Source of the DNA: Salvelinus alpinus
Taxonomy: Eukaryota > Chordata > Actinopteri > Salmoniformes > Salmonidae
Assembly (NCBI RefSeq): GCF_045679555.1
Contig: NC_092094.1
Span: forward strand, 15,204,612 to 15,268,611
Length of the DNA stretch: 64,000 nucleotides
Reading direction: 5' to 3'
The translations under genes and the position numbers were made by a program. Shown piece after piece: positions 8,201 to 61,975 of this stretch. Every line of letters starts with the position of its first letter. Positions within the stretch are counted from its first letter, which is position 1. Below the pieces are notes generated by a model. The model was given only the letters and a program-made list of their open reading frames with translations. It did not search any database and was not told the origin of the DNA.

Positions 8201-11200
8201 GAAAGCTTATTGGACACTAAGAAAGCTTTGTTGTAGAGCGTTCAACGCAAAATCCAGGGAGGGGCCAGCTGAGTGTAAGACTATCGTCTGCATATAAATG
8301 GATGAGAGAGCTTCCTACTGCCTGAGCTATGTTGTTGATGTAAATTGAGAAGAGCGTGGGGCCTAGGGTTGATCCTTGGGGTACTCCCTTGGGGTACTCC
8401 CTTGGTGACAGGCAGTGGCTGAGACAGCAGATTTTCTGACTTTATACCCTGCACTCTTTGAGAGAGGTAGTTAGCAAACCAGTTCAAAGACCCCTCAGAG
8501 ATACCAATACTCCTTAGCCGGTCCACAAGAATGGAATGGTCTACCGTATCAAAAGCTTTGGCGACATTGCTTAGAATCAAGGGCAATGGTGACATCATTA
8601 AGGACCTTTAAGGTTGCAGTGACACATCCATAACCTGAGTGGAAACCAGATTGCATACCAGAAAGAATACTATAGACATCAAGAAAGCCAGTCCGTTGAT
8701 CATTGACAAGTTATTCCAACACTTTTGATAAACAGGGCAAAATAGAAATAGGTCTATAACAGTTAGGATCAGCTTGATCTCCCCCTAAAAATAAAGGACG
8801 AACCGTGGCTGCCTTCCAAGCAATGGGAACCTCCCCAGAAAGGAGAGAGAGGTTAAAAAGGTCGGAGATAGGCTGGGCGATGATAGGGGCAGAAACCCTA
8901 AAGAAGGGTCTAAACCATCTGACCCAGAGTTTTTTTGGGGGTCAAGTTTCAGGAGTTCCTCTAGCACTTCGGACTCAGTGACTGCCTGCAGGGAGACACT
9001 TTGTTGCGGGGCAGGGGGAAAGAGGGAGAAGCATCGGGGATAGTCACATTAGAAGGGGTGGGAGATGAGGAGATGTTGGACTGGCAAGCAGGCATGTCTG
9101 AGTCAAATAGGAATCCTGACTTAATGAAGTGGTGATTAAAGAGCTCAGCCATGTGCTTCTTGTCAGTAACAACCACATCAACTTTAAGGGACATGGGCAG
9201 CTGTGAGGAGAGGGTTTATTCTCCAGGTCTTTAACCGTTTTCCAGAACTTCTTGGGGTTAGACCCACAGAGAGAGAACTGCTCCTTAAAGTAACTAACTT
9301 TGGCCTTCCGGATAACCTGAGTGCACTTATTTCTCATTTGCCTGAAAGAGAGCCAGTTAACCACGTCTCAGTAATGACCAACACATCTGGATTGGAGCTG
9401 TGAACCAACACTTTCAATTGAATCAATTTTAGGTAATAAGCTTCTAGTGTTAACTTCCAGTAAACCCAGGCTTTTACGGGAACAGAAATCAGTGAAGCAG
9501 ATATCAGAGCACAAGTCAGAATTGGGGCTAGCAACAGTAGATGGGCAGGGTGTGCATGCACATTTCCAGATATCATCAACAGTAATACAATCAAGGGCAT
9601 AGGACAGGGAGATCTCTGCAGTGCTGATTTTATGACATATGAATGTGCATCAGATGGCAACAAGATCATATTGTACAGCAATTTCATCAGGTAACATGAA
9701 TACAAAGCCGGCGAGAGGTGTTTAGAAGAGGATGGGAGGACAAAAGTCCATGTAACCAATAGAGAGTCAGAGTCCCGAGTGTGGGAACAAACATACTGTC
9801 CCACGGTTGGGTAAAGAAAGTTCGTAGTTAACAAAGCATGCAGGAGTCATGAGGCAAATGACAAAATGCACAATAATTTTTTTAAATGTTTAACGACTTG
9901 GCTAGCAATTGTAAGTTCAGAGTCACTCGCCCCAACAGTACATGTGTGCTGGAGGCGAGGGAAAGCTCGGAAGAGAGGGGAGGGGGCTTCAAGTCCTCTG
10001 GATCTGGGTGGGGTAGCCTGCCATTTGTTGGGCTCAAAGGCTTCGACACCTCTCGCTTCGCACGTCAGTGCTAATTGAAGATGTAACTCTTAGTCCTAGC
10101 AAAGCTTGGTAGCCTGAGCATTCAGTCCTTTATTAAGTAAAATATATCATTGTTATTGGCTTTTGAAAGTAAAAAAATTGCTTCAGACTAATAAGCATTA
10201 CTCACTCAGCTCCAGGTTGGATGGTGTTTTCAGGTCTCTGCTTGTTTGGGAATAATAATCCTTGAGTGTAGGAAGCATTCCAAGTAAATTCCATCCAAAA
10301 ATCAGGTTGTAGGTTTCGATTTGGAGTGAATGTTATGTTTAGGGTAGCATCCTGAATATGTCCCTCCCCAAAATTTATATTTTTAAAAACATGCTGAACA
10401 ATTTGCTCATGACCTCTGTCTGTCTGTCTAAAGTAAACTTTAAGCTCGTCTCTCAATAAAAATAAAAAAACGTGTCAATACTTTGCCCCTTGATAATCAG
10501 CGCACTTCTGTATGTTGTGAAAGCGTTACATGGTCGCTGCCCATATCATTGCATAGTGCAGAAAATACACGAGAGTTCAGGGGCCTTGCTTTAACTAAGT
10601 AAGCCATTTTCACTATAGTGTCTAAAACATATTTCAAGCTGTCAGGCATTCCCTTGGCAGCAAGAGCCTCTCGGTGGATGCTGCAGTGTACCCAAGTGAT
10701 GTCGGGATCGACTGCTTGCACGCGCGTTACCACTCCACTCCACTCCACTCCACTCCACCTGGACTAGTCTTGAGGGACCACTGCTTTGAAGTAAACTGCT
10801 TAGCGATTTCGACATCTGCCTCGAGGCTCCGGTATCAAACGTAACATCACTAGGTACTGTTAGGTTCTAATTCTGAGTAAAACACTCAACGGACATTATG
10901 AAAGCTGAACCAAGTTTATTCTTCCCAGAGGATCAATACAGCTGCATTAGACAAAACGTGTTTCCACCAACACAAGTGTACATACTCCAATATAGGCCCT
11001 CCTCCTCCTCTCCAATCCTTACATCAATTATGGTTTGACAGGAAGAGGGTAATAAACCATAATTTCTCCCTTAAGGGGATCTGACCTGACCTCAACCCCT
11101 CATTTGCTTAATCCACAGATGTACACCCGTATCCCCTATAGCAATCCTGTGACTTCCTCCCGTCCACTCAGCACATCCCAAAGCCATCTACGTCTTCTCT

Positions 11201-14200
11201 CCAGGTCTACCTCCGGGGACACAGTGCAGCTGGTGGAGCAGTCTCTGGACACCAACCTACTGAACAATGCTGTTAAACTCAAGATCACACACTGCCCTCT
11301 GCTGCCCGGAGGCGTACACGTCCAGGAGACTCTCAACAATGTCACCATCCTCATCGTCACCAACCAGACTGTGCACCGGCTGGTGCTGCCACACCCCACA
11401 CGCATGTACCGCAGCGTAAGTCCCTCTTTAGGATGCTTCTAAACCAAAATGCATGAATCATATGTCCGACGCAGTGGAGTGGGGAGAAATGATTTGTGTG
11501 AAACATTCTGTTTTTAATTGGTTGACGTAATCAATGTTCTTACTTTTCTGACAGACAGAGCAACACAACCTTTTCCTAGCACACTGTGCTGTATACAAAT
11601 ATACTTTTTTTTCTCCCTTACCTCCTACAGGAGCTGGTGACAGAGCTCCAGATGCAGTCCATATTTACAGACGTGGGGAAAATGAGTCTGCAGGACCCTG
11701 CCCACAGCGCAGTCATCCCCAGCACTGTGGGCCAGACAGTAGGCCCCACCGCCTCAGCAGTCTGGCTCAGCCACCAGGGAGAGGCCCATTACGCCCTTGC
11801 TTCACCTGCAGGGGGTATCCTGGTCGTCACACTGCCCCCACACGACACACAGGCCAGCTTGACCATTCTGGAGCTGAAGACAAGCTCTGTGATGCAGAGA
11901 CTGGCTGGCTGGATGCCAACTGCCATCAGGTTAGAAGACATGTTTTTTACCTCTTTAATAGATTGAGTCTGGGTCCGTGTTATCGCCCCATTGTGTAAAC
12001 CAACCCTGGTTCTTTTGTTCGTGTGTATGTGTAACCCTCCGTGTGTGTCCTGTCCAGAGGTGAGCAGAGCCCTGGGGACCTGGCCCTGAGTCTGGCAGTA
12101 AGGGAACTGGAGGACGACACCTTCATCTTGGCTCTGTGTCAGGACCATAAACTACGCATGTGGTCCTATAGGGTCAGTCCCATAAAGAGATTGTTCTATT
12201 GAATTCTGTGGTCAGAAGCATGACATTTTGGGGTCCCGAGTGGCGCATTCATCTCAGTGCTAGAGGCGTCACTAAAGACCCTGGTTCGATTCCAAGCTGT
12301 ATTACAACCGGCCGTGATTGGGAGTCCCATAGGGTTGTCCGGGTTAAGCTTTTGCCGGGGCAGGCCGTCATTGTAAATAAGAATTTGTCTTAATTGACTT
12401 GCCTAGTTAAATGAAGGTTAAATAAAATAAACATCCTGTTAATGCTGAGATCTGTGAAACAGTGCCACTGGTCTCCCCAAGAAACATAGAACAAAATAAA
12501 TGGTAGTACATACATACTCTGCCGTTCTATCCCATGTGCAATGATTGCCGAGGGAATAAGTGTTATTTTTTGTTAAAGTGACGTCTGTTGTAATATCGCA
12601 AATGGACATAGCAGTTTCACCCCAACGGATTGCAACTTTATGTCCTTTAGAGGAAGGATGTTGAACTTTTTCATTTGGATCTAAAAGTAGGCCTAATTGA
12701 TTAAATGATGAGAAATATTAACCTGGATATCAACAAAATAAAAAAAATCAACAAAAAATTATAACATAAATCGTTTTTGCTAACATGGGAAGGCCCTTCC
12801 TCATCCTACAGGACCAGGCATGTCTGATGGAGGCTGACATGTTGGAATACATGCCAGCGTGCCGGGGGGTGAAGCGTTCCCCAGGACAGGGCCATCGGCT
12901 ACGGCTAGCCTTCTCCTCCACGGGGCTGTGTCTGGCCATCTACCTGGCCGTACCTTCCAGGGGACAGTTCACTGTGCTGCAGCTGGTGGCCACAGACAAC
13001 AACCGCTACAGCCTGGACCACATCTCCTCACTGTTTGCCACACAGGTAACTGAAGGAGAGGTGTGGAGGGTGTGTGTGAGAGTGGGTAGGGGTTGTCTTT
13101 GCGGAAGAATATGTGTCGGTTTGGAATGGGTCTGGAATTTTGATATTATGTGTTAGTTAATGGAAAGTCTCATCTCAGTAATATGTTTTGTCAGCCTGAC
13201 TCCTCTCCTGTGTGTCCTGGTGTGATTAGGAGACACTGGTGGACTTTGCTCTCACTTCTACGGACATCTGGGGCCTGTGGCTGGACGATACCAACCAAAC
13301 CGTGGTGAAATACATCAACTTTGAACAGTGAGTGTGACATGTTTCGATTATCCTTTGGATAGTGTAATGGACTTGTATGCCTATATATCAAGAGATGATC
13401 TCTGTAACATTGTGAATTTAGTTTTCTGGGGGGAAATGAATATAATTTGGAGTGCTGTCCATTTCCTACTCTGCTTACCTCCATTGTGACGTCACAGTTC
13501 CATGGCAGGTCAGTGGAACCAGGTGTTTGTGCAGCCTGGCCCTGAGGAAGAGGTCCACATCGGAGCAGACCAGGACCCCAGGGTAAGACAACACCACATC
13601 ATTCATCACTGATATCAAATGGGATTTGAATTAATTAATCTGATTTCATTTATTAAATTAACTGATTAATCAGAACCTGATTTGATGACATCACGCTCTG
13701 TCCAAACATCATTGCAATTTATCAGTATCCTCCTATTCCATATTGTCACTATTGTGCCTACACACATAAAAAAAAAAATACATTTTTTAATCAAGCTAAT
13801 TTGTCCTATCTATTGTGTTATGACAGGAGACCTACCTGGATGTGCTCTTCTCCCCCCTGAGATTCACTGCCTCTGCTATAGTCAAAGCCCTACAGATTTA
13901 CAGGAGAGGCACAGAGCGAATCACTGATCTCCCCTGGGAGACCCTCAAGAAAGAGGTGACGGTGGCTGTGGAGAAGGAGGTAAGCTAGACCAGGCTCCCT
14001 GCTTTCTGCGTATTCTCTCCATCTGACTCACACACCGTCTCCTGACTTTTTTCTCAGCTTGTTTCTGCTGCATTTCCTACATGTATGACTCTCTCCCTCT
14101 CTAGCTGCAGAGCAGTGTAACAGAGTTTGAGTTCAGCCAGGAGGAGTACAGGCAGCTACAGGTGGAGTTCTGGTCCAAGTTCTATGCCTGCTGTCTACAG

Positions 14201-20200: not shown

Positions 20201-23200
20201 AATTGACACACAAACACCCAAACGACATTCCATAGCAAAGATCCAAACAGCGTTCCATAGAAATCCTGGTTGAGAATGAAACGACTGAACAATGAAACAG
20301 CACAGCAAGTAAGTGAAAGAACAAGGTTTTGATTATGTTTTACTGGTAATGGGGACATGCGTAAATGCCAACAAAATAACTGTGTGTGTGTGTAACCTTT
20401 ATTTAACTAGGCAAGTCAGTTAAGAACAAATTCTTATTTACAATGACTGCCAAACCCGGACGACGCTGGGCCAATTGTGCGCCGCCCTATGGGACTCCCA
20501 ATCACGACCGGATGTGATAGACTGGATTTGAACCAGGGACTGTAGTGACGCCTCTTGCAATGAGATGCAGTGCCTTAGACCACTGAGTCCGTGTTAACTA
20601 TTTAACTGTACTAGAATACTTAAAAGGCCGCTAAAATATTAAGTATCGGTATCAGGGTTTTTTTGGCAAGGAAAATATCGGTGCATCACTAATTGAAATA
20701 CATACCTAAGTTACAGTATTAAGACTAAACAGGATGCGCTCTTTGGCCTACAGCTCGATGGTTGTCATACAAGGCTGCTATACAAAGCCTATTGATGATA
20801 ATTATATTACTTATTATAATGATGACAATGACAATAATATCAAGAAAACGGAGGGTTATTACAAATATATATTTTTTCTGACAATTTGGAAGTGTAAACA
20901 ACACTAAATAAATGTAAAGTAATACTAGAGGCTGTTCTAATGGAAAAAAGTGTAAAGCCTTTATTACAGCATTTAAAAACAGCCACATTTGTGAAATTGT
21001 TTGACCGACATGTAGTGGCTGAGGCTTGGTGCTCACGGAATCAGTAGGCTATTAAACAAATACACAAAACAGTCTTATTTCTGTTTATATGTACGATTTA
21101 TAAAGCCAGGCGCATTTAAGTTAAGCTATTCATTATAGACCTAATTAAGTTGGTGTTTCCTCTCACTTTTCTTCGAAAATTAAGGCAAGTGCTTTTTTTC
21201 TCTTCTGCTAACTCCAACTGCTGCCTCCGCCGCATTGTTCTCAATACCAATATGCTGGTTAACTTTGCTATTATGCACATAGCAACATGGTCTAGGAAAA
21301 GGCGCCAATTCAACAGCGCATTGATGTTTCAGAACCGTGGACAGCGACCGCTATCCAACGCGGGAGAAAGTGCATTTGTTATAAAATATTTGTATTAGTG
21401 TTGCACCATTGTTCTTAGGTAATATAACCTAAGATATATATACAATTTCAATAGCGCATGTCTTAGTGATGTACTGCCATCCTCACGGCCTCCACAATGG
21501 ATTAGTCCACACAGACAGGCGCACAATCAGACAGGTGTCTTGTACACAATTAAATATTTTTTTTGTTACTGCTCGACTGAAGAAATCTTGGTCGACCAAC
21601 AAACAATTGACCAGTCGACTAAATATGGTCCGCCCTACATCACACACAGTCTGCTCTTCTGACTTAATTGTGTGTGTTCTCCAGGTGTTCCCGGGTGGAG
21701 GGCCTCAGCTGCTCCAGCTACAACAGGACCTGATCCCCCGCTCCTCTCAGCTTCTCTCCTCCTACTATCTCCTCAAACACATCACCCAGAGCCTGACCAC
21801 CACCGTGCCTCTTGACATCATGTACGCACACAAACACACACAACAGACACACACTCCAACGCAACACAACACACAGTATTGAATTCAGTGAATTCTACCT
21901 AGTTGACATTGTGTTCTCCCTCCAGAGATGCCAACCTGCAGCACCTGTCAGTCCTGGAGCTGTCTGATTCTCCAGCTATGGCCAGCAACAGATCAGGTCA
22001 GGTGCTATGTGTAGCCTCCGTGTTGACTTCAAGCCTCTCTCTAAGCGATTACTTTTTTTTCCTGTTTTAATCAGGAATTCCTGCTTTTCTGACATTGCCC
22101 TCTATTCATACATCATTGCAATATGCCTAGCTAACCCAAACCAATATCATACTTTTGTCTGAATTTTCCTGATTGTCTATTGTCCTGATCACATCCCTGT
22201 ATCCAACTCCGTTTTCTTTCCCCCTCAGTCCGGAGCCCCCAGACGGTGGTGGAGCTGTTCTACCAGAACGTAGCGCGGAAGGCCATCATTACACAAATCT
22301 ACTCCAAGCAGCACAGCCCCGCCCCGGGCACAGCCCTGCTCCACTGGCCCCACATGGTCTCCAGCGTGGTCACCCTGCTGGCTCAGCAACTGTATCTTAC
22401 CACACCTACACACACACACGACTGTGCTTGGCTAAGCAAAAGTTGATGTTTCCCTAGGAAAGGTTATCTACACAGCTGGCATATTTTTAAGCAATGTTAT
22501 TTCTGTCCTCATACACTGCTAGGCTAGTCGAGGCTAGAGTTAATATTCTTTACGCAAGGTTATTACACACCACATGGCTAGCACATGCTATGCTATTAAA
22601 GCGAGGCAAAGCTAAACTTGATGTGCTTTAGGCAGCGATTTGACTATTAGCCTTAGAGGGTTGCAATGAGGTGCACTGTAAATAATGTCAAGGTTGACCC
22701 TTAACACTATCTCTATAGCTGGCCCAACAACCTTAGCTTCCAGTTCCCTGAGTGTCTGATGGGCAACTGCCAGTATGCACAACTACAGGTGAGACGCTTC
22801 TCACGGACTCTACAACCCTCTCACACACTTATTTGTGTTGCATCATGTTTTTTTTTTTACCTTGACTGCATAACCAATGTCCTAATTGGGGCAATAAATA
22901 TGTATTTATTGATTGAAGCAGATTTAATTAAAAAGCCAACTGATGCATTTTTAAATAGAATATTTTCTTAAGCTCTCCTTTTCTCTCTCTTCAGGAGTAT
23001 GTGCGTCTCATTGGGCCGTGGTGTCAGGTTAACGTGGGCTCCTGCCGCTTCATGCTGGGCCAATGTTACCTGGCCAACGGAGAGGGACAGAAGGTGTGTT
23101 TTAAAGTGGAACTGACAGCGTTTTAACATCTTTTCACATATGGAACAAACAGACAATCATATCAGTCAAAAATATCAAATTCCCAATTTATGCGACAAAA

Positions 23201-26200
23201 CTTTGAGATAAAAACAACAAAAGAAAGGTTCTATTTGCCTCAACATTCCATAGGTGGGCCTAGGAGGGCATAGACCCATCCACTTGGGAGCCAGGCCCAG
23301 CCAATCAGGAGTTTTTCCCCACGAAAGGGATTTATTACAGACAGAAATACTGTTTTATCAGCTGTCCGGGTGGCTGGTCTCAGACGATCCCGCAGGTAAA
23401 GAATCCAGATGTGGAGGTCCTGGGCTGGCTTGGTTACACGTGGTCTTCGGTTGTGAGGCCGGTTCAACGTACTGCCAAATTCTCAAACTACATTGGATGC
23501 AGCTTATGGTAGAGAAATTCATATTAATTTCTTTACAACTTTAGAAATCTGTGGCATTGTTGTGACAACTGCACATTTTAGTGGCCTTTTATTGCCCCCA
23601 GCACAAGGAGCACCAGTGTAATGATCATGCAGTTTAATCAGCTTCTTGATATGCCACACCTGTCAGGTGGATGCATTTTCTTGGCAAAGGAGAAATGCTC
23701 ACTAACAGGGATGTAAACCCATTTGTGCACAAAATTTGGGAGAAATATTTTTTGTGCGTATGGAACATTTCTGGGATCTTTTATTTCAGCTCATGAAACA
23801 TGGGACCAACACTACATGTTGTGTGTTATTTTTGTTCAGTGTATATAATTCACCAGTACATTTCTTGGTAGTCAAAAATGATTGCTATCAGGTAAATCAC
23901 AGCTGGCCTGGTTCAATGTTTGCTGCCTTCATTCAGGGATGCACTGTTTCAATGGCTCATAATTTTGTACAAAAACAGATGAATGTAACAAAGGCTGAGA
24001 ATGACAATACAATCAAACTAACAAGGGCGATGATCACAAGTCGGTCATAATGTGGCTAATAGGCTATCGTAGCAAGCTAAAAACACGGAGCCAACGTTAG
24101 CTAGCTGCTAGGAAGATGTCATGTCATTGGAGATGTGGGTCGAATGACTTTTTCCCCTCATATCATTTTCCGGTGGCTATACACACCTAGAGATGCAGGT
24201 GTCATTTGGTTAGCTAGCAAGAACTTGAACGACTGTTATCCAGTTAGCATATCTCTTGCGTTCGCAAATTCACTCTGGCTATCTACTCCAATTTCAGAGC
24301 ACTCTCATCTGAGTATGCCAGAGCTCAGAATAACTGATGAATTTACGAACATCAACACCTGCTGAATGTGGCTGGTGTCAGTAAACGTAGGCAAAGAAAG
24401 TAAGTTGGTCATGAACGCTCTGGATAACATGTAAACAGCCTAACCAGCTCTGTTAGGTTGAGTAAAATGGTCAGAGTAAGGCGTTCTCTCATTTGTCTGG
24501 AGGTAGCTAGCTAGCAAGCTAGCCAAACTATTGCTATCAGGTTGTAAATCACAGCTGTCCTGGTACAATGTTTGCTGCCTACATTCGGGATGCACTGTTT
24601 CAGTTTCAAAGGCTCAATATTTTGGATAAAAAAACGGACGAATGTAACAAAGGCTGGGAATGACAACACAATCGGTTAGCTTTGGGTGCTTGGTTGGGAC
24701 AAGCATGCGTTGTTAGCAGGTAAGCTGCAGAAGAACGAAAAGGCTACAATTCCCTATCATTTATCAGTACAACTAGTTGAAGTTTTGGTTTATCTACTGT
24801 TCCTTCGTTAGATGTTAGCTCATCTTTCTCTGGCTAGCATTAGTTGTTGATGTCCATAACTGAGGGAGAGAGAGCCTACCTTTTCATGTTTGTTTGATCA
24901 ATAGGACTGTAAAATTCCCAAACGTAAGAGGACTCCCAAGTGGTATTGACATATTTGCAGAAATCCATGCAGGTGTATTTTGAGGCTTTTGGCGACTGCG
25001 TTCTAATGATCAAAAGTCGTACTGTTGTAATTGCCTGTAAACACACAGTCCAGTTCAAAGTGGCCTGTGGCAAATAAAGGCCTACTGTAGCTCCGATTGG
25101 CTATGGCGCACCGGTCTGCGTAGACGCTGGTTCTGGATGAGAGAGATGTTATATTTACTGCAGTTAATTGTTCAAACGCATTGCTGCTTTTCCACTCTAT
25201 ATTGCTATAGAACTTTCACAAATGCCTTAGTATACGTAAACTTGAAAATGACCATATCTAAGTGCTCGCTTGTCAGAAAATGTTTTAAAAAAGTGTCATG
25301 CTTCCTGGGGGTTCACATTAACATATTTAAGATGTTTTGTTGTTCAAATGCAGTCAGTTCCACTTTAAGGGTTGCGGTTGCATTTCAAAGTGCCATTATG
25401 ACTATGGGAAGAGTTGTTGCGGTAGTACAGAAGGTGTAGTGGCTGAAAGCATGAAATATGTCATATTTCTCTGAGTTGTTGCTTCACAGGTGTGACAGAG
25501 CAACACCAGTAGCTGTTTTTTTACCCCCATTTGTGGCATGTGTCCAGGCACTGCAGTGTTTCCAGGAGGCGGCGGTGGAGGTGGAGAGGGAGGAGTTTCT
25601 TCTGAGATTGACAGGAGCCGAGGAGGAAGCTGCGGCTGCACCGAGACTACAGTACTACAACAAGGTTACTATGGGAACCCGTTCTTTAAATAATATATTA
25701 TTATTGGATTATTTATTAAATGTAGTCGGGTGCTCGTGCCCTACAAACCCTTTCAAACACAATCTGGATGCGTGTGAGTGGAATGAGTAAAAAAAAAAAA
25801 ATGGTACAGTGTTTTTACTTATTCTTAAGTGTGTGTTAGGTGCTGCGGTTGCTGGAGGACGTTGGTCTGCCAGAGCTGGTCATCCATCTAGCCACTCTGG
25901 CTATCACGGAGGCCGTCAATGACCCCAGGAGTCAGGCTGCCCTGTGGACCCGCATCTTCAAGCATCACCTGGACTTAGGACACAACAGCCAAGCCTACGA
26001 AGCCCTCACACAGAACCCTGACTCCAGCAGCCAGTTAGACTGTTTGCGTCAGCTTGTTGTGGTTCTGTGTGAGCGTTCTCAACTTCAGGACCTGGTCCAG
26101 TTCTCCTACGTCAACCTGCACGATGAGGTAGACACACATACAGTTGTGGCCAAAAGTTTTGAGAATGACACAAATATTAATTTTCAAAGTCTGCTGCCTC

Positions 26201-29200
26201 AGTTTGTATGATGGCAATTTGCATATACTCCAGAATGTAATTAATTGCAATTCATCTGATCACTCTTCATAACAAAGTCCCTCTTTGCCATGCAAATGAG
26301 CTGAATCCCCCAAAAACATTTCCATTGCATTTCAGCCCTGCCACAAAAGAACCAGCTGACACGTCAGTGATTCTCTCGTTAACACAGGTGTGAGTGTTGA
26401 CGAGGACAAGGCTGGAGATCACTCTGTCATGCTGATTGAGTTCGAATAACAGACTGGAAGCTTCAAAAGGAGGGTGGTGCTTGGAATCATTGTTCTTCCT
26501 CTGTCAACCATGGTTACCTGCATGGAAACACGTGCCGTCATCATTGCTTTGCACAAAAAGGGCTTCACAGGCAAGGATATTGCTGCCAGTAAGATTGCAC
26601 CTAAATCAACCATTTATCGGATCATCAAGAACTTCAAGGAGAGCGGTTCAGTTGTTGTGAAGGCTTCAGGGCACCCAAGAAAGTCCAGCAAGCTCCAGGA
26701 CCGTCTCCTAAAGTTGATTCAGCTGCGGGAACGGGGCACCAGCAGTACAGAGCTTGCTCGGGAATGGCAGCAGGCAGGTGTGAGTGCATCTGCACGCACA
26801 GTGAGTCGAAGACTTTTGGAGGATGGCCTGGTGTCAAGAAGGGCAGCAAAGAAGCCACTTCTCTCCAGGAAAAACATCAGGGACAGACCTATATTCTGCA
26901 AAAGGTACAGGGATTGGACTGGGGTAAAGTCATTTTCTCTGATGAATCCCCTTTCTGATTGTTTGGGGCATCTGGAGAAAAGCTTGTCTGGAGAAGACAA
27001 TGTGAGTGCTACCATCAGTCCTGTGTCATGCCAACAGTAAAGCATCCTGAGACCATTCATGTGTGGGGTTGCTTCACAGCCAAGGGAGTGGGCTCACTCA
27101 CAATTTTGCCTAAGAACACAGCCATGAATAAAGAATGGTACCAACACATCCTCCGAGAGCAACTTCTCCCAACCATCCAGGAACAGTTTGGTGACAAACA
27201 ATGCCTTTTCCAGCATGATGGAGCACCTTGCCATAAGGCAAAAGTGATAACTAAGTGGCTCGGGGAACAAAACATCAATATTTTGGGTCCATGGCCAGGA
27301 AACTCCCCAGACCTTAATCCCATTGAGAATTTGTGGTCAATCCTCAAGAGGCGGGTGGACAAACAAAAACCCACAAACTCCAAGCATTGATTATGCAAGA
27401 ATGGGCTGCCATCAGTCAGGATGTGGCCCAGAAGTTAATTGACAGCATGCCAGGGCGGATTGCAGAGGTCTTGAAAAAGAAGGGTCAACACTGCAAATAT
27501 TGACTTTGCATCAACTTCATGTAATTGTCAATAAAAGCCTTTGACACTTATGAAATGCTTGTAATCATACTTCAGTTTTCCATAGTAACATCTGACAAAA
27601 ATATCTAGACACTGAAGCAGCAAACGTTGTGGAAATTAATATTTGTCATTCTCAAAACTTTTGGCCACGACTGTACATTCTCTTTACATTTGGTTAGAGC
27701 GCATTATGGACTATATAAATGTATTAGATTCATCAGATCAAGTGTTTGACCTTCTTTTCTGGCTGCAGGTGGTCAGCATCATAGAGTCCAGAGCCAGAGC
27801 AGTGGACCTGATGTTCCACAACTACTACGAGCTGCTCTACGCCTTCCACATCAACAGACACAACTACAGGAAAGGTGAGAGGAACCTGGGACTCTGTCAG
27901 ATATTAGCACTCTGTTTATAAATGAGGCTGGTGGTATTTCTTTTAACTCACTCTCCATTTTGTGTGTGTTTTATTTTGATGTGTTTGGCCCTATCTGTGT
28001 CCTCCAGCGGGTACGGTGATGTTTGAGTACGGCATGCGTCTGGGCCGGGAGGTGAGGACACAGCTGGGTCTACAGAAACAGGTCAACTGTTGCCTGGCCT
28101 CCCTCAACTGTCTACGGCTCATCAGATCTGACTATGCCTGGATTGTCCAACCCACCTCTGGAGTGGTGTATGAGAGGCCCGCTGCATCACCAAAGAGGAA
28201 CTACGATGGAGAGTTTACTACTGGTCCAGGTGAGATACTATAGGCATAGATAACGATTTGTGATTATTATAATTACCGCGATAAATGTTCCTTTTTGGTC
28301 ATTACTATCTTTACACCACTATGTTTGGGACATGGTGGGAAATGTGTTTGATGACATGCTCTTTAAATTCTACAGTATTGTAATTGTTTGTCCATTGTTA
28401 AGTTCATGTTTTAAGTTTCTCTATATTTCTGTTATTACGGGGCTATTACTCTGTTATTAGTGCGCCTGCGCCGGTGTCTCGTAGTTGATGATCCTGGCCT
28501 GAGTGCAACCGCGTATTGTGCTAATACTGTTGCGTAAACGTTGTTAAACTGGAACCTTGTCGTTGTGTCATTTTGAGTTAACATCCGTGTCCCTGCAGTG
28601 AGTGGTCAGATGGACATCCTGGAGCTGAAGGACCTTCAGAAGGAGTACGCCCTTGCCCGTAGCCGCCTCATCCTGGCTCAGCATCACCCACCCTCCGCTG
28701 CCATTGCAGGTATAAACAACACTGATAACATATTCCCAAAAGTGAATGGAAAGTGACTTGTCAGTAAGCCATCACCAATGATGTTTTGCCTTGATACCTC
28801 TTAATGTGATCATTTAGAGGGGGGAACATTATTCCTGTAAGGAAACAAAACCCTTAATCGAACACCAGAAATGTAACAGTTCTGTGTGTGGTGTTGCAGG
28901 CAGCGCCTCTGCAGTGGAGATGGTGTCCCTACTGGTCCAATCTGGACTGTTCGACTGTGCCCTCTCTCTCTGCCAGACCTTCAAACTCTCCCTCACTTCA
29001 GTCTTCGAGGGACTTGCCTTCAAGTAAGTAACGGGCAGAGTCAACTGCATGGAGTGACTTGAATTTATACGCATATCTCTCGTTGACAATGCATGATTTA
29101 CGTGAATTTCCTAGTTATGCATGCAGTTGGTATTCAGCCTGTAGTGATCACATCAAAGTAATCGGTCTTGCTTTGTCTGAACTAACATGTAGATATAGGG

Positions 29201-35281: not shown

Positions 35282-38200
35282 TCAGACAGTGCTTTTGGTG
35301 GGCAGCTCCGTACTATTGTGCCGCGTTTTCCTCGATGTTCCGTCGTCGCGCGGCCGAGCCTTCTGTAGGCTTGACATGGCGGCGGTGCGCTCGATGTCTA
35401 TGAAGGCATAGAGCTCGGTACGGCGTGTGGGGGTGGTAGGCGGCAGCGGCGAGGTGGGGGTGCGGGGCGTGTGGGGGTTGCTGGTGTCCGAGGAGGCACC
35501 CTTGGCAGCTGCGGATGAAGAGGTGGTGGTAGATTCCATCTCCAACTCGATGTAGTTGAGCGTCTTGGGAGGCTCCTGACACAGCAGCCCCAACGGCCGG
35601 CGGAAGTCAAAGTTGAAGATGGTGTGGCGGCGTACCATGTCGGGGGCACAGCGAGCGCTGAGAGGAGCCGTCACATTCTCTGTGTTGACGTAGTTGTGGG
35701 AGGGTTCCATGGCCGAATGAGGGGGGTAGGCTGACAGGGGGTGGGAGTAGGAGTGGTGGTTGTAGCCGTTGAGGGATGGCGTCTTCAGCCCCCCCTGGCC
35801 GCCTCCATTGTTCTCCACCTGCTCGTTGCTGGGCTTGCGGGTCTCCCAGACGGGCGGCAGGGCCGGGAGGTTCTCATAGTCCAAGAGGGCCGTGCGTCGC
35901 TGGGCTGAGTTGTTGACATTCTGCAGGGTGTCGGGGGGCGTGCGGTGGAGGCGGGGGGCTGTTACTGGGGCAGTAACCCCGACAGAGGTGCCGTTGGAGT
36001 GTGTGTGGGGCGGCTGAGGCTGGCCCTCCAGTAGGGCTGGGGCCTCTGTGGCACAGTGTGTGTCCGTCTGGCTGTTAGTCTCCTCCTCTCCAAGATCCGG
36101 GGACTCTGGGTCCTCCCCTGCCTCCTCTCCATCTCCACCCCCAGTAGACTGCTTCCCCTTGGCCATCTTCTTCTGTACAGGGGTGGGTCCCAGCACAAAG
36201 CGCAACCCCAGGGGCTCCAGCAGTACCTGGGGCTCTTCCTGGAGCTGGGGCATGGGGGGCAGAGGCTCTGGTCTGGCTACCCGTGGAGGGGGAGGTGTAG
36301 GGGGACACTGGGACTGGCCTGAGTCGGGGCTGTCCAGAGGGGCTGGAACAGTCAGAGGGCTAGGCTGGTCATCCAGCAGACCTGTGGTGTTCACATAGGT
36401 GTGGATCTGTAGACGGATCAGGAGACGGGGTTAATATAACATCGTCATCACACCAACTCGGCAGCTTTTACATTAACTCATTATTACCCATCAATGTCAC
36501 AAGTGGCACAGTGGATGTTCTCTTTAGTCTAGGACAGGGTTCTCAATTTAAATGAATATTATTTTGGCCAAGGGATCCATGGAATAAGTTTAGAGGGTGT
36601 AATACAACACAATGTAATCAGAGTCCAACATTATGGCTGGGGCCAGTAAAAACAATAACCAGTAACTTCTCCGCGCATTTTAACATTCCAGTTCCACATT
36701 TACCTGCTGTCGCAGTCCACCATTGAAGACTAGACTACACACGAAAAAGTCATGCTATTTGTATTTTAACAATATGATTGGCCATTCATTGAAGCACCAC
36801 CACGCTCCCACGAGTCACAACTTCTCAAACAGTACATGAGTTGATTCCTTGACACAGCACACGAGAACAAAAAGTAGTGGCTTTAAAATATCAGCTTTAA
36901 ATCTGCAACAACAAAAAATGTCTCTGCCCCATGACAAAATGTATAGAATGCAGGAAATAGCTTAGCTTGAAAACAGATTAATTTTTTTATGCTCTGGTGC
37001 AGGCCTTTAAAATGTTCCTTCCCAAGGCCCGTGCTTTGGTTCGTCCAGCCATGCACTGCCGGAGTAATAGTAAAACTCCTTATATGCCATTTTTATCTGT
37101 GTTCTGATTTTGAGAGGGTCCCTGTTGAATTTTCTTTCACAAAAAGGTGCCCCCAGACACAAAAGGTTTGAGAACCCCTGGTCTAGGAGACCTCAAAATG
37201 TGCTCTGCCAGACAACTCAAACATTTATATTGAGAGGTCTTGTTTCATCTACACTGTGTACAAAACATTAGGAACATCAGTTCTTTCCATGACAGACTGA
37301 CCAGGGGAATCCAGGTGAAAACTATGATCCCTTATTGATGTCACTTGTTAAATCCACTTCAATCAGTGTAGACGAAGGGGAGGAGACAGGTTAAAGAAGG
37401 ATTTGTAAGACTTGAGACAATTGAGACATGGATTGTGTGTATGCCATTCAGAGGGGAATGGGCCAGACAAAATATTTAAGTGCCTTTGCACGGGGTATGG
37501 TAGTAGGTGCCAAGCGCACCGGTTTGAGTGTGTCAAGAACTTCAACACAGCTGGGTTTTTCACGCTCAACAGTTTCCCATGTGTATCAAGAATGGTCCAC
37601 CACCCAAAGGACATCCAACCAACTTGACACAACTGTGGGAAGCATTGGAATCAACATGGGCCAGCATCCCTGTGGAACACTTGACACCATGTAGAGTCCA
37701 TGCCCCAACGAATTGAGACTGTTGTGAGGGCAAAAGGGGGTGCAACTCAATATTAGGAAGATGTTCCTAATGTTTTGTACACTCAGTATATAAAGCTATA
37801 GGGGCTGGAGTATTTCAGTGTGCTGGCCTTATTCTATTCCCTCAGATGTTAATGTGTTTGAAGGGAGTTTTCTGCCATTACATTTTTTGTGCGGGCTGCC
37901 TAAGCGTTATTTCAAGTCGCTTAAGTCCAAACAGTGTAACAAAAATAATAAATCAACGACTAAATCCAGTTATAAAGTATGCAGAAAGATAATTAACCTA
38001 TATATTTTTTATAATATCTTTGAGAATAAAAAGGTGCTCCCGAGTGGAGCAGCGGTGTAAGGCACTACAGACCCTGGATCGATTCCAGACTGTATCACAC
38101 CCGGCTGAGATTGGCCCAACGTCGTTAGGGTTCATTAGTTGTTGTTTTTTAAAGTATTTTTTTAATTTAACCTTTATTTAACCAGGTAGGCCAGTTGAGA

Positions 38201-40222
38201 ACAAGTTCTCATTTACAACTGCAACCTGGCCAAGATAAAGCAAAGCAGTGCGACAAAAACAACAGAGTTACACATGGGATAAACAGACAAACAGTCAATA
38301 ACACAATAGAAAAATCTATATACAGTGTGTGCAAATGTAGTAAGATTACGGAGATAAGGCAATAAATAGGCCATAGTGGCGAAATAATTACAATTTAGCA
38401 TTGACACTGGAATGATAGATATGCAAGTAGAGATACTGGGGTACAAAAGAGCAAAAATACATAACAATATGGGGATGAGGTAGTTGGGTGGGCTTTTTAC
38501 AGATGGGCTGTGTACAGGTGCAGTGATCGGTAAACTGCTCTGACAGCTGACTATTGAAGTTGGTGAGGGAGATAAGTCTCCAGCTTCAGCGATTTTTGCA
38601 ATTCGTTCCAGTCATTGGCAGCAGAGAACCGGAAGGAAAGGCGGCCAAAGTAGGAGTTGGGGATGACCAGTGAAGTAAACCTGCTGGAGCGCGTGCTACG
38701 GGTGGGTGTTGCTATGGTGACCAGTGAGCTGAGATAAGGCGGAGCTTTACCTAGCAAAGACTTATAGATGACCTGGAGTCTGTGGGTTTGGCGACGAATA
38801 TGAAGTGAGGGCCAGCCAACGAGAGTATACAAGTCGCAGTGGTGGGTAGTATATAGGGCTTTGGTGACAAAACAGATGGCACTGTGATAAACTACATCCA
38901 ATTTGCTGAGTAGAGTGTTGGAGGCTTTTTTGTAAATGACATCGCTGAAGTCAAGGATCGGTAGGATAGTCAGTTTTACGAGGGTAGCAGCAGCAGCAAG
39001 AGCGACATCATTGATATATACAGAGAAAAGAGTCAGCCCGAGAATTTAACCCTGCGGCACCCCCATAGAGACTGCCAGAGGTCCGGGAAAACAGGCCCTC
39101 CGATTCGACACACTGAACTCTGAGAAGTAGTTGGTGAACAAGGCGAAGCAGTCATTTGAGAAACCAAGGCTGTTGAGTCTGCCGATAAGAATGCAGTGAT
39201 TGACAGAGTCGAAAGCCTTGGCCAGGTCGATGAATACGGCTGCACAGTATTGTCTTTTATCGATGGCGGTAATGATATCATTTAGGACCTTGAGCGTAGC
39301 TTAGGTGCACCCATGACCAGCTCGGAAACCCGATTGCATAGCGGAGAAGGTACAGTGGGATTCGAAATGGTCGGTGATCTGTTATGTTAACTTGGCTTTC
39401 GAAGACTTTAGAAAGGCAGGGCAGGATGGATATACAGTTAAAGTCGGAAGTTTACATACACCTTAGCCAAATACATTTAAACTCAGTTTTTCACAATTCC
39501 TGACATTTAATCAGAGTAAAAATTCCCTGTCTTAGGTCAGTTAGGATCACCACTTATTTTAAGAATGTGAAAAGAATAATAGTACAGAGAATGATTTATT
39601 TCAGCTTTTATTTCTTTCACCACATTCCCAGTGGGTCAGAAGTTTACATACCAAAAACGAATTGAGTGTAGCATTGCCTTTAAAATTGCTTAACTTGGGT
39701 CAAATGTTTCAGGTAGCCTTCCACAAGCTTCCCAATTTTGGCCCATTATTCCTGACAGAGCTGGTGTAACTGAGTCAGGTTTGTAGGCCTCCTTGCTCGC
39801 ACACACTTTTTCAGTTCTGCCCACAAATGTTCTATGGGATTGAGGTCAGGGCTTTGTGATGGCCACTCCAATACCTTGACTTTGTTGTCCTTAAGCCATT
39901 TTGCCACAACTTTGGAAGTATGCTTGGGGTCATTGTCCATTTGGAAGACCCAAGCATACCACCCTGCATACCACTGCTGGCTTGCTTCTGAAGCTAAGCA
40001 GGGTTGGTCCTGGTCAGTCCCTGGATGGGAGACCAGGTGCTGCTGGAAGTGGTGTTGGAGGGCCAGTAGGAGGCACTCTTTCCTCTGGTCTAAACAAAGA
40101 TCCCAATGCCCCAGGGCAGTGATTGGGGACACTGCTCTGTGTAGGGTGCTGTCTTTCGGATGGGACGTTAAACGGGTGTCCTGACTCTCTGAGGTCATTA
40201 AAGATCCCATGGCACTTATCGT

Positions 40223-40256
<34 letters not shown>

Positions 40257-43200
40257 AATTCCCAATCTGGCCCTCAACCATCAAGGTCACCTAATAATCC
40301 CCATACAATTGGCTCATTCATCCCCCTCCTCTCCCCTGTAACTATTCCCCAGGTCGTTGCTGCAAATGAGAACGTGTTCTCAGTCAACTTACCTGGTAAA
40401 ATAACGGTAAAAAAAAAATTAAAAATTAAAAATTTGCGACCAAGCTTTAACTTCCTGACTGATGTCTTGAGATGTTGCTTCAATATATCCACATAACTTT
40501 CCTCCCTCATGATGGCATCTATTTTGTGAAGTACACCAGTCCCTCCTGCAGCAAAGCACCCCCACAACATGATGCTGCCACCCCCGTGCTTCACAGTTGA
40601 GATGGTGTTCTTCGGCTTGCAAGCGTCCCCCTTTTTCCTCCAAACATAACGATGGTCATTATGGCCAAACAATTCTATTTTTGTTTCATCAGACCAGAGG
40701 ACATTTCTCAAAAGTACGATCCTTGTCCAAATGTGCAGTTGCAAACCGTAGTTTGGCTTTTTTATATCGGTTTTGGAGCAGTGGCTTCTTCCTTGCTGAG
40801 CGGCCTTTCAGATTATGTCGATATAGGACTTGTATACTGTGGATATAGATACTTTTGTACCCGTTTCCTCCAGCATCTTCACAAGGGCCTTTGCTGATGT
40901 TCTGGGATTGATTTGCATTTTTCACACTAAAGTACGTTCATCTCTAGGAGACAGAACGCGTCTCCTTCCTGAGCGGTATGACTGCTGCGTGGTCCCATGG
41001 TGTTTATACTTGCGTACTATTGTTTGTACAGATGGACGTGGTACCTTCAGGCGTTTGGAAATTGCTCCCAAGGATGAACCAGACTTGGAGGTCTACAATT
41101 TTTTTTCTGAGGTCTTGGCTGATTTCTTTTGATTTTCCCATGATGTCAAGCAAAGAGGCACTGAGTTTGAAGGTAGGCCTTGAAATACATCAACAGGTAC
41201 ACCTCCAATTGACTTAAATGATGTCAATTCGCCTATCAGAAGCTTCTAAAGCCATGACATAATTTTCTGGAATTTTCCAAGCTGTTTAAAGGCACAGTCA
41301 ACTTAATGTATGTAAACTTCTGACCCACTGGAATTGTGATACAGTGAATTATAAGTGAAATAATCTCTCTGTAAACAATTGTTGGGAAAATTACTTGTGT
41401 CATGCACAAAGTAGATTTGCCAAAACTATATTTTGTTCACAAAAAATTTGTGGAGTGGTTGAAAAACTAGTTTTAATAACTCCAACCTAAGTGTATGTAA
41501 ACTTCCGACTTCAACTGTAGGTCTATAACAGTTTGGGTCTAGAGTGTCTCCCCCTTTGAAGAGGGGGATGACCGCGGCAGCTTTCCAATCTCTAGGGATC
41601 TCAGACGATACGAAAGTGAGGTTGAACAGGCTAGTAATTGCGGTTGCAACAATTGTGGCGGATCATTTTAGAAAGAGAGGGTCCAGATTGTCTAGCCCAG
41701 ATGATTTGTATGGGTCAACATTTTGCAGCTCTTTCAGAACATCTGCTATCTGGATTTGGGTGAAGGAGAAGCGATTGGGGGCTTGTGCAAGTTGCTGCGG
41801 GGGGTGCAGAGCTGTTGGCCGGGGTAGGGGTAGCCAGGTGGAAAGCATGGCCAGCCGATTATCGTGGATTTATCGGTGGTGACATTGCTTCCTAGCCTCA
41901 GTGCAGTGGGCAGCTGGGAGGAGGTGCTCTTATTCTCCATGGACTTTACAGTGTCCCAGAACATGTTGGAGTTTGTGCTGCAGGATGCAAATTTCTGTTT
42001 AGAAAAGCTAGCCTTAGCTTTCCTAACTGATTGTGTATATTGGTTCCTAACGTCCCTGAAAAGTTGCATATCACGGGGGTTATTCGATGCTAATGCAGTA
42101 CGCCACAGGATGTTTTTGTGCTGGTCAAGGGCAGTCAGGTCTGGAGTGAACCAAGGGCTATATCTGTTCTTAGTTCTACATTTTTTGAATGGGGCATGCT
42201 TATTGAAGATGGTGATGAAAGCACTTTTAAAGAATAACCAGGCATCCTCCACTGACGGGATGAGGTCAATATCCTTCCAGGATACCCAGGTCGATTAGAA
42301 AGGCCTGCTCGCTGAAGTGTTTTAGGGAGCGTTTGACAGTGATGAGGGGTGGTCGTTTGACCGCAGACCCATTACGGACGCAGGCAATGAGGCTGAGATC
42401 CTGGTTGAAGACAGCAGAGGTGTATTTAGAGGGCAGGTTGGTCAGGATGATATCTATGAGGGTGCCCGTGTTTACAGATTTGGTGTTGTACCTGGTAGGT
42501 TCATTGATCATTTGTGTGAGATTGAGGGCATCTAGCTTAGATTGTAGGACGGCCGGGGTGTTAAGCATATCCCAGTTTAGGTCACCTAACAGTACGAACT
42601 CTGAAGATAAATGGGGGGCAATCAATTCGCATATGGAGTCCAGGGCACAACTGGGGGCTGAGGGGGGTCTATAACAAGCGGCAACGGTGAGAGACTTACT
42701 TCTGGAAAGGAGGATTTTTAGAAGTAGAAGCTCGAACTGTTTGGGCACAGACCTGGATAGCATGACAGAACTCTGCAGGCTATCTCTGCAGTAGATTGCC
42801 ACCCCGCCCCCTTTGGCAGTTCTATCTTGGCAGAAAATGTTATAGTTAGGGATGGAAATTTCAGGATATTTGGTGGCCTTTCTAAGGATTCAGACACGAC
42901 TAGGACATCGGGTTGGCGGAGTGTGCTAAAGCAGTGAGTAAAACAAACTTAGGGAGGAGGCTTCTGATGTTAACATGCATGAAACCAAGGCTTTTACGGT
43001 TACAGAAGTCAACAAATGATAGCGCCTGGGGAATAGGTGTGGTACTGGGGTCTACAGGGCCTGGGTTAACCTCTACATCACCAGAGGAACAGAGGAGGAG
43101 TAGGATAAGGATACGACTAAAGGCTATAAGAACTGGTCGTCTAATGAGTTGGGAACAGAGAATAAAAGGAGCAGATTTTTGGGCGCGGTAAAATAGATTC

Positions 43201-46200
43201 AGGGCATAATGTACAGACAAGGGTATGGTAGGATGTGAGTACAGTGGAGATAAACCTAGGCATTGAGTGACAATGAGAGAGGTTTAATCTCTGGTGGGAC
43301 CAGTTAGGCCTGGTGAGGTCTCCGCATGTGTGGGTGGTGGGACAAAAGAGCTATCTAAGGCAAGGTGAGCAGGACTGAGGGCTCTACAGTGAAATAAAAC
43401 AAATAAGGACTAGCCGAGACAGCAGTAGACAAGGCATATTGACATTAGAGAGGGGCATATTGACATTAGAGAGAGGCTTAAAGCAGTCACAGGTGTTGAT
43501 CAGGAGAACTAAGACAACAATGGGTAAATGGCGATGAATGGGCAGAGCGGGTCAGTTATGGACATACAGGACCTGAGTTCGAGGCTGGGGCCGACAGATA
43601 AACAAAATGGGGTACCATGAAGATGGGTCTTTGGCGACATCGCAAAGGAAAAGCCCGTTGAGACCACGTCAGCAGACGAGTCGTGATGGATCGGCGGGAC
43701 TCCGCGTCGACAACAAAGGGTCCAGGACAATTGGCAAAAGAGGGATTGTTGCCCTAGAATTAGCTGGTATATGGGCCTAGCTCGTGGCTAGCTCAGGGCT
43801 AACTGGTGCTTGCTTCGGGACAGAGGCATTAGCTAACAGTAGCCACTCGGTAGCAGCTAGCTAGATGCGATGATCCGGTGTAATGATCCAGAGCAGCAGG
43901 AATCCGGTGATGTGGTAGGGAGAAGCAGTCCGATATGCTCTGGGTTGATATCGCACTGTGCAGACTGGCATGTATTGTCCCAGCTAAAGCTGGTGGTGTC
44001 CGAGCTAAAAGGTGAAGACCACTAGCCGTGGCTAACAAAGAATAGTAGCTAGTTAGCTGACGGAGGTTTCAGTTATAAGGAATAAAAATAGCAGATCCGT
44101 ACCACATTGGGTAAGGCGGGTTGCAGGAAAGTATATTTTGTTCATAGATAGAAAGTGAGATTAAAATGTATACAAGAAAAAAAAGAGGCTATTTACACGG
44201 GATAAGACAAAGACAATAACAACACACGACCGACTGCTACGCCATCTTGGAATGTAGAATTGTGAATAAGAATTTGTTCTTAACTGATTTGCCTAGTTAA
44301 ATAAAAGGTACAAAATAAAAAAAGATGTGAAAATTCCCAAAACAATTAATTTAGCAGTACAGATTTAGTTATGTTTGATCAAAAGAACACAGCATTAGCC
44401 ATGGCAAAATGCATAGAATTGCAGGAAATGAGCTTACAAATGCAATAATGTATCTACACAGCCAAGATGGGGGCGTCTAAAATGTTCCTTAAAATTCAGC
44501 CACGTCTGCCAAGCCCCCGACCTCCACCCAAGCCCCCTTTTATCCAGAAAAAAACTCTAGTTTGGTTTTGAGTTGCTCTCTCACCGCATCATCAGCCACT
44601 AGCAGGGGGTGTGAGGACTCCTCTCCCACCGAGGGCAGGCGGGTGCTGGCCACAGACGGGTGGCGCGTGGAGGGGGTGTCGCCCACCGAAGGGATCCGGG
44701 TGACACCATTGGGCATGGTGGGGACAGAGTAGCCCAGAGCTAGATTGACATAGAGAAGGGAAGAACTGGGGGGGGTCAGTGGGGACAATGTCCCAGAGTC
44801 TATTTGGAATAGGCCATTTCCTTCTCGATAAGCTAAACTATATATAGAATAGGTAGCCTAAACTTTTCAACTATAGTAGATTGACATATGCTAGTGATTG
44901 GCTGAGGAAAAGTAAACGTGGACAGTTATTCTAACATGTTCAAAGAGCACATCAGAATTCGGTAAGGACCGCACATTGTTGCATCCTCGACTTGCATGTT
45001 CTGTTAATATGAATTACCATATTCTAAATGTGATTTCTGTCATTCTGAGAACTGGGGGGAAATGCTCTAATCAGGTTACGCACCCAATGCAGGTCCAGTA
45101 CGTTTCTCAAATGTCCGGCAACACGGAAATCATATATATTTCCGTGTTGTATATATATGGCAATGGGCATTTCGGGTCATTGCAAGTATGGGAAGAAGTA
45201 TTCATAATTGGGCCAGTTCTAGTTGTAGGATGAATAAGGTCTTACCAGTCTGGTGGTTGGCCTCCAGCACGGCCTCCTCCACCACACTGATGCTGTGGCT
45301 GTGCATTACCTCCTGCAGTATATTGAAGATCTCCTCTGCCCGCGCACACTTGAAGGCAAAGATCCCTAAAGACACACAAACAAACGCAAAGACAAGAAAC
45401 AAATAAAACACAGTCAAACTGCAGTCAAAACAGTCAAATTGCAGTAAAAAAACAACTCAGGAATCACATATGTGCGCACGACCGCAATACAGACAATTGA
45501 GACGCACAACCATTATCAGAACTGCTTAGACCTTCATGTTTACAAAAGGTTTGTACATTTATCGGGTCTTCGAACCTATGCCCTTGTCTACCTTGTGATC
45601 ACTGATCTAAATGGACTGGGTAGGGGAAGGCAACAGAACGGTAGAGATAAAGGACAAGGAAAAGATAGCAAAATATCAAGAAGGAACACATTAGGAACTA
45701 CCATAAGTACAGCATAACAATAGTGACAAACTAACTAACACTGCATAATGCACAAAGAGAAAACACAAAACACACAGCTATGCTCTACTTGTGCAAAAAA
45801 AAAAAAAAAAAAATCCCAGTCAAACACAGCACAACACAGAGTCAGACACAGGCATCAATACTGTAACCACAGAAACAGAATCACTAAAATGGACATCCAA
45901 TCCATACTTAAGTCAATGATGCCATAATAATTATATTTCTGACTAATATTTCTGGTAATCACAGTATTATGTCATTCATCATCACAACATGAGGTGGGAA
46001 CACAATGAGCCTGACTTACCATAGTAAGCCAACCCATAGCCAACCCCTAGTAACCACCCCCCCTGTCCCAACCCCCATCTCTCCCGCCACCAGACCTCAT
46101 CCTTTTGAAAGCATGGATGGAGTCCAAAAATAACCACACAGACATTTTTGTTATTGGCATTGCAGCATAATCAATGACCGGTCCAAGTCAATATATCAAC

Positions 46201-49200: not shown

Positions 49201-61975
<12,775 letters not shown>

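Follow-up and report, generated by a model that had tools for sequence, protein, structure and literature searches.

A putative 2A/StopGo motif between a hydrophobic leader and the endonuclease in a single-ORF LINE family of Salvelinus alpinus

A decayed LINE copy and its surroundings

The window that we analyzed, a stretch of 64,000 nucleotides from the genome of Salvelinus alpinus, carries on its minus strand a LINE that is split into two parts. The 5' part spans 41518..44252, and its 5' end was placed at about 44252; homology begins at 44250-44255 in 16 of 57 loci, extends further in 3 and starts further inside in 38. A Tc1/Sleeping Beauty-like transposon (39435..41517, minus strand), bordered by TA on both sides, interrupts the LINE in its reverse transcriptase (RT) region, and one reading frame of this transposon matches the structure of the Sleeping Beauty transposase (SB100X; E-value 7.3e-55). 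The 3' part of the LINE (38155..39434, minus strand, end approximate) comprises the remaining RT sequence, with an RVT_1 match at 39049-39300 that falls under its cut-off (4.7e-6), and the 3' tail at 38171-38202.

The leader region of the LINE (43083..43480, minus strand, upstream limit approximate) is no longer open in this copy, owing to a TAA at 43284-43286 and a frameshift. It contains a block of 26 residues in the family majority as read from 29 loci (43191..43268, minus strand) and ends in a leucine-rich stretch of 20 residues (43083..43142, minus strand) whose hydropathy reaches up to 2.8 over 15 residues. Directly behind this stretch, GDVEVNPGP is encoded (43082-43056, minus strand), followed by 36 further residues that can be read; the motif and the APE-like endonuclease are in the same frame. 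The endonuclease part (42266..43022, minus strand) is disrupted by a frameshift in this copy; its Exo_endo_phos match (4.4e-5) lies slightly under the curated cut-off, and a search of the PDB with this broken piece gave no match. The first-pass annotation had pointed to GDVEVNPGP as an in-frame fit to the 2A consensus on the minus strand, and had called the copy dead; the former is confirmed by our analysis, and the latter is borne out by the TAA codon, the frameshifts and the Tc1 insertion.

DVEVNPGP conforms to the core (D/G/C/N)(V/I)ExNPGP of 2A/StopGo sequences, whose predicted skip lies between the last G and P. The GDVEVNPGP site is the only place in the window that matches the degenerate DNA pattern without a mismatch, and D[VI]ExNPGP occurs a single time in the six frames of the window, where a first-order Markov chain leads one to expect 7e-5 occurrences by chance. 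The residues ahead of the core, LLCSSG, provide a leucine-rich context that ends in SG and places a G (p11) immediately before the D, a context that we compared by eye with the description given in PMC12846837 rather than with the motif models of that study. The hexamer differs from the most typical LLLLSG, which weighs against the StopGo reading.

Four related LINE-like tails, at 38165-38235, 7695-7760 and 20390-20450 on the minus strand and at about 44240-44330 on the plus strand, all carry the inverted repeat AGAAYTTGTTCT, a short sequence that precedes an end of the TAAATAAA type. This repeat is possibly a hairpin for recognition by the RT. An RNA-family search of 38120-38300 did not retrieve a LINE tail family up to an E-value of 10, and no Rfam model reached its gathering score. 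A further LINE at 53659-56637 (minus strand), with an open frame of 992 aa and an RVT_1 match (1e-33), resides between exons of a receptor-type phosphatase; it has a hydrophobic N-terminus but neither a 2A core nor leader similarity to the 2A-carrying LINE or to the sister LINE at 7690-10080 described below. Tyrosine phosphatase and fibronectin III domains found at 52733-53050, 60642-61028 and 61129-61494 (all minus strand) are probably exons of one receptor-type phosphatase gene. Nup160-like pieces are present on the plus strand at 11580-11966 (beta-propeller, 4.6e-6, under cut-off) and at 25840-26211 (middle TPR, 3.2e-40).

Conservation of the motif among genomic copies

We searched the window's own genome (2,367,770,401 bases; 2.37 Gb) with the pattern GAYNTNGARNNNAAYCCNGGNCC, which specifies D, one of F/L/I/M/V, E, any residue and NPGP. 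It gave 5,364 exact matches, whereas the reversed-pattern control gave 9. All 28 places that were sampled proved to belong to this LINE as judged by leader or endonuclease sequence; they form a non-random set from the first approximately 100 listed, all on one contig (C1), 8 of them taken by default and 20 picked for rare codon variants. The start of the endonuclease follows in frame in 25 of the 28, and a stop codon, a frameshift or a sequence change is found in the other three. Some sampled loci are not independent of each other, since L003/L004 and L006/L007 are each 99.7% identical across the whole loci. The near-identical L006 and L007 (G000:C1, about 5.13-5.15 Mb) have repetitive upstream sequence and a leader start unlike that of other copies.

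A search with the 127-aa leader-motif-endonuclease segment returned 10,495 first-look candidates, and 150 of them, including the window itself, were scored (84-100% identity). From the 149 besides the window we fetched 89 loci, namely the top 29 and 60 taken at even steps down the list. GDVEVNPGP is exact in 64 of these 89 copies (and in 25 of the top 29), GDIEVNPGP occurs in one, and 24 show scattered decay in which no variant core is present more than twice. The family consensus, on which the first-pass annotation had let its proposal depend, thus retains DVEVNPGP with no rival variant held in common. Because a ranking by similarity to a motif-holding query favors intact copies, the 72% of exact motifs should be taken as an upper guide. 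Relatives of the LINE were also sought in collections of viral contigs, genome contigs, plasmids and phages, and none were found there.

The 89 loci reveal sharp differences in constraint along the leader. Per codon, nonsynonymous departures from the majority amount to 0.048 in the leader block at 43191-43268 and to 0.197 in the spacer that follows it; the hydrophobic leucine-rich stretch has 0.052, GDVEVNPGP 0.037, the linker behind the motif 0.199 and the first part of the endonuclease 0.041. Hence, the motif is conserved about as strongly as the start of the enzyme and has sharp edges, and both the leader block and the leucine-rich stretch are nearly as constrained. Variation rises just after the final P: in 29 loci, it is 44% at the first codon beyond it and 34% at the second. 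The nine motif codons deviate from the majority codon by 30 nonsynonymous and 62 synonymous departures, part of the latter being one AAC/AAT difference common to copies, and the upstream spacer by 281 nonsynonymous and 81 synonymous ones. Among the 119 windows of nine codons the motif ranks 24th and is not the most conserved, which weighs against the StopGo reading. Numbered backwards from the final P, position 13 is a leucine in the window and in 86 of 89 loci, and position 14 is a leucine in the window and in 79 of 86.

Seven longer copies, chosen for their long open frames, were compared by the Nei-Gojobori method (19 of 21 pairs covered); all seven were required to match D.E.NPGP, and L059-L062 were taken from the list of motif-pattern matches. 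In the 14 of 14 covered pairs that do not involve L060, the core shows no amino-acid change alongside 1-4 synonymous differences; L060 reads DLEVNPGP, and there is one core amino-acid change in each of its 5 covered pairs. Since these copies were selected for a matching core, the absence of change at D, E, N, P, G and P is circular and does not count as evidence. The flanking dN values are unaffected by this selection: between L059 and L062 they are 0.37 for the leader, 0.05 for the hydrophobic stretch, 0.22 for the linker after the motif and 0.05 for the endonuclease. Together with the 89 loci, these flanking values delineate some 28 conserved residues that end in NPGP and are embedded in a faster-changing leader. 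The length of this block is close to the roughly 30 aa which, according to PMC2885027, are needed for full 2A activity.

Reading frames of open copies and of a sister family

In three of the seven longer copies (L059, L060 and L061), a single uninterrupted ORF runs from the leader through the motif to a common stop codon; the frames of L063-L065 end 452-486 aa past the start of the core, and L062, whose sequence is partial, was left out of this verdict. Measured from the preceding stop, the three open ORFs are 1,112-1,137 aa long, of which 141-166 aa precede the core; their stop codon lies at the identical place, 971 aa from the D of the motif. They therefore code in frame on both sides of the motif, as is demanded of a 2A/StopGo sequence. 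That one of these three, L060, has DLEVNPGP as its core counts against the StopGo reading. L059 and L060, both of which were scanned, carry endonuclease and RT domains (L059: Exo_endo_phos 7.5e-8, RVT_1 1.2e-32; L060 alike), and L059 matches the LINE-1 ORF2p structure in the PDB (5.9e-13). An AP-like endonuclease and an RT in one ORF identify the element as an APE-type non-LTR retrotransposon. The first-pass annotation had called the family salmonid and L2-type; both labels are tentative, with the Sleeping Beauty-like transposon being no more than suggestive of the former. That the motif should share its frame with the enzyme was another point raised by the first-pass annotation, and natural copies with a single ORF bear it out for both the endonuclease and the RT.

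Counted from the first Met codons common to several copies, the leader is approximately 118-132 aa long; L061 lacks these common Met codons, and its first Met is found 80 aa before the core. The leader contains two hydrophobic segments, one near its start (MPCPLLFWLVFIGLFHC in L059) and one that ends at the 2A. Within 750 nt upstream of the leader, no ORF of more than 69 aa beginning with ATG is present in 14 loci, whose copies are partly decayed; hence no ORF1 was found, and in these 14 loci the family has the layout of the one-ORF (ORF1-less) subgroup. Further homology upstream of the leader was looked for and not found.

The sister LINE at 7690-10080 is homologous to the 2A-carrying element in its leader frame, its endonuclease start and the position of its motif. 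When the leaders of the two families are compared, only one of the 9 frame pairs aligns, the one that runs into the motif; its score of 54 was reached by 1 of 500 shuffles, and by 5 of 1,000 when the leucine stretch was left out. The first-pass annotation had read CACTPCP at this position; we rejected this reading because it lies in another frame around the loss of one base, and the homologous reading in the window is SGNVHAHP(G)P (9542..9567, minus strand). The sister family is numerous too (909 first-look candidates, of which 40 were scored), and this, together with its non-canonical core, weighs against the StopGo reading. Among the 16 best sister copies after the window's own, 15 have GNVHVHPGP in frame with the start of the endonuclease, preceded by LIVLLLMIS or close variants, and the 16th is frameshifted. 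One codon string at the motif is common to 14 of the 15, and such near-identity provides little independent evidence of selection. NVHVHPGP lies outside the core (D/G/C/N)(V/I)ExNPGP, and it is in these letters that the sister family differs from the canonical DVEVNPGP family. The earlier suggestion that the motif might be lineage-specific consequently applies to the canonical letters and not to the position, which both families share.

Predicted ribosome skipping and alternative explanations

2A-like sequences in APE-type non-LTR retrotransposons were reportedly described by Odon et al. 2013 (Mol Biol Evol 30:1955), in elements that are said to represent the Rex1, Crack, L2, L2A, CR1 and Ingi clades, to be active in several cases and to be linked with a one-ORF organization. 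The occurrence of 2As in non-LTR elements is already in print (PMC4981915, citing Odon et al. 2013), and the LINE studied here shares with those of Odon et al. 2013 the presence of a 2A in the ORF of an animal non-LTR element. Among the literature matches listed, judged by title and the start of the abstract, there was no report of a salmonid LINE with a 2A. We regard the LINE 2A as a well-supported further instance of a mechanism that is already known, with an altered version in the sister family.

Skipping of the bond between G and P depends on the upstream context (PMC12846837; PMC4981915); leucine-rich 2A contexts that end in (A/S/C)G are described in these studies, as is dual targeting where a 2A ends a signal sequence, and the leader of this LINE appears to fit that picture. 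With the upstream motifs 2 and 6 of viral StopGo sequences (PMC12846837) it has in common a D at p12, a G at p11, A/S/C at p10 and leucines further upstream; the viral motifs, in contrast, stem from RNA viruses, prefer S at p15 where V is found here, and read LLLLSG in place of LLCSSG. The 2As of sea urchin NLR proteins likewise terminate a hydrophobic N-terminal segment for which a dual-targeting model has been put forward, and mutation of leucines 13 and 14 of SpNLR2A6 cuts recoding (PMC4981915); we infer that the numbering of SpNLR2A6 runs back from the last P. Unlike these host proteins with their N-terminal sequence of 26 aa, the LINE has its 2A at the end of a retrotransposon leader of ~120-130 aa that has another hydrophobic segment close to its beginning.

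We put at roughly 77% the probability that the motif functions as a StopGo/2A and thereby detaches the endonuclease-RT protein from the hydrophobic leader in this single-ORF non-LTR family. The reading frame, the conservation among the sampled copies, the preponderance of synonymous over nonsynonymous change in the motif and the layout of the ORF are observed directly; that the ribosome skips here, how efficiently it does so and what becomes of the leader is what we infer. In living copies, the ribosome would first translate the leader, about 120-130 aa that include two hydrophobic segments, and at the end of the 2A the last glycine would, in most passages, not be joined to the next proline. 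The leader would then be released, and translation would continue, giving an endonuclease-RT protein with proline as its first residue. Whenever skipping failed, the endonuclease-RT would remain joined to the hydrophobic leader and might in that form end up at membranes.

Alternatively, there might be no ribosome skipping at all, and the segment might serve as a hydrophobic signal or anchor, its end being conserved for the sake of membrane insertion or of leader cleavage by a protease. The strong hydrophobic stretch, the small residues before the core and the second hydrophobic segment near the start would all suit such a role, and 2As of S. purpuratus double as signal sequences (PMC4981915). 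However, neither a signal nor a protease site needs D, E, N, P, G and P at fixed places, and in the LINE these residues are constrained while the next two vary freely; we consider this explanation unlikely. Still another possibility, to which we assign a low probability, below one in ten, is that an ancestral 2A has persisted only as a piece of the endonuclease's structural linker and that its skipping is weak or absent. The sister family, with the position retained and three core residues changed, speaks in its favor, as does earlier work noted by PMC12846837 in which D12N and N16H showed no more than modest activity when placed in foreign contexts. Against it stand the natural variants with N at p12, H at p14 or H at p16, each of which is active when it occurs alone (PMC12846837), and the finding that variant cores of the canonical family are common to at most 2 of 89 copies. 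Chance might have come to mind for a motif that was noticed from a single, decayed copy, but it is refuted by the low expectation for the window, by the genome-wide counts of 5,364 versus 9 and by the exact motif in most of the family copies, and we give it practically no credence.

More tentatively, and with a probability that we judge to be clearly below even, the sibling families may use one recoding position with different cores, DVEVNPGP and an NVHVHPGP that still skips; the passages of PMC12846837 drawn upon here contain no report on the activity of the triple variant N12/H14/H16. If this were true, the StopGo core would be wider than the published motif, allowing three positions to depart from the consensus simultaneously, and the retrotransposons concerned would tune the amount of endonuclease-RT that is freed from a membrane-directing leader. 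Activity of the three-residue core variant of the sister family would tell which contacts with the ribosome exit tunnel matter.

This vertebrate LINE family, whose genome holds thousands of exact motif matches, allows a 2A to be investigated as something that is conserved and not as a single sighting. The role of recoding in LINE biology thereby becomes testable, including the function of the leader and the reason why one-ORF elements keep a 2A.
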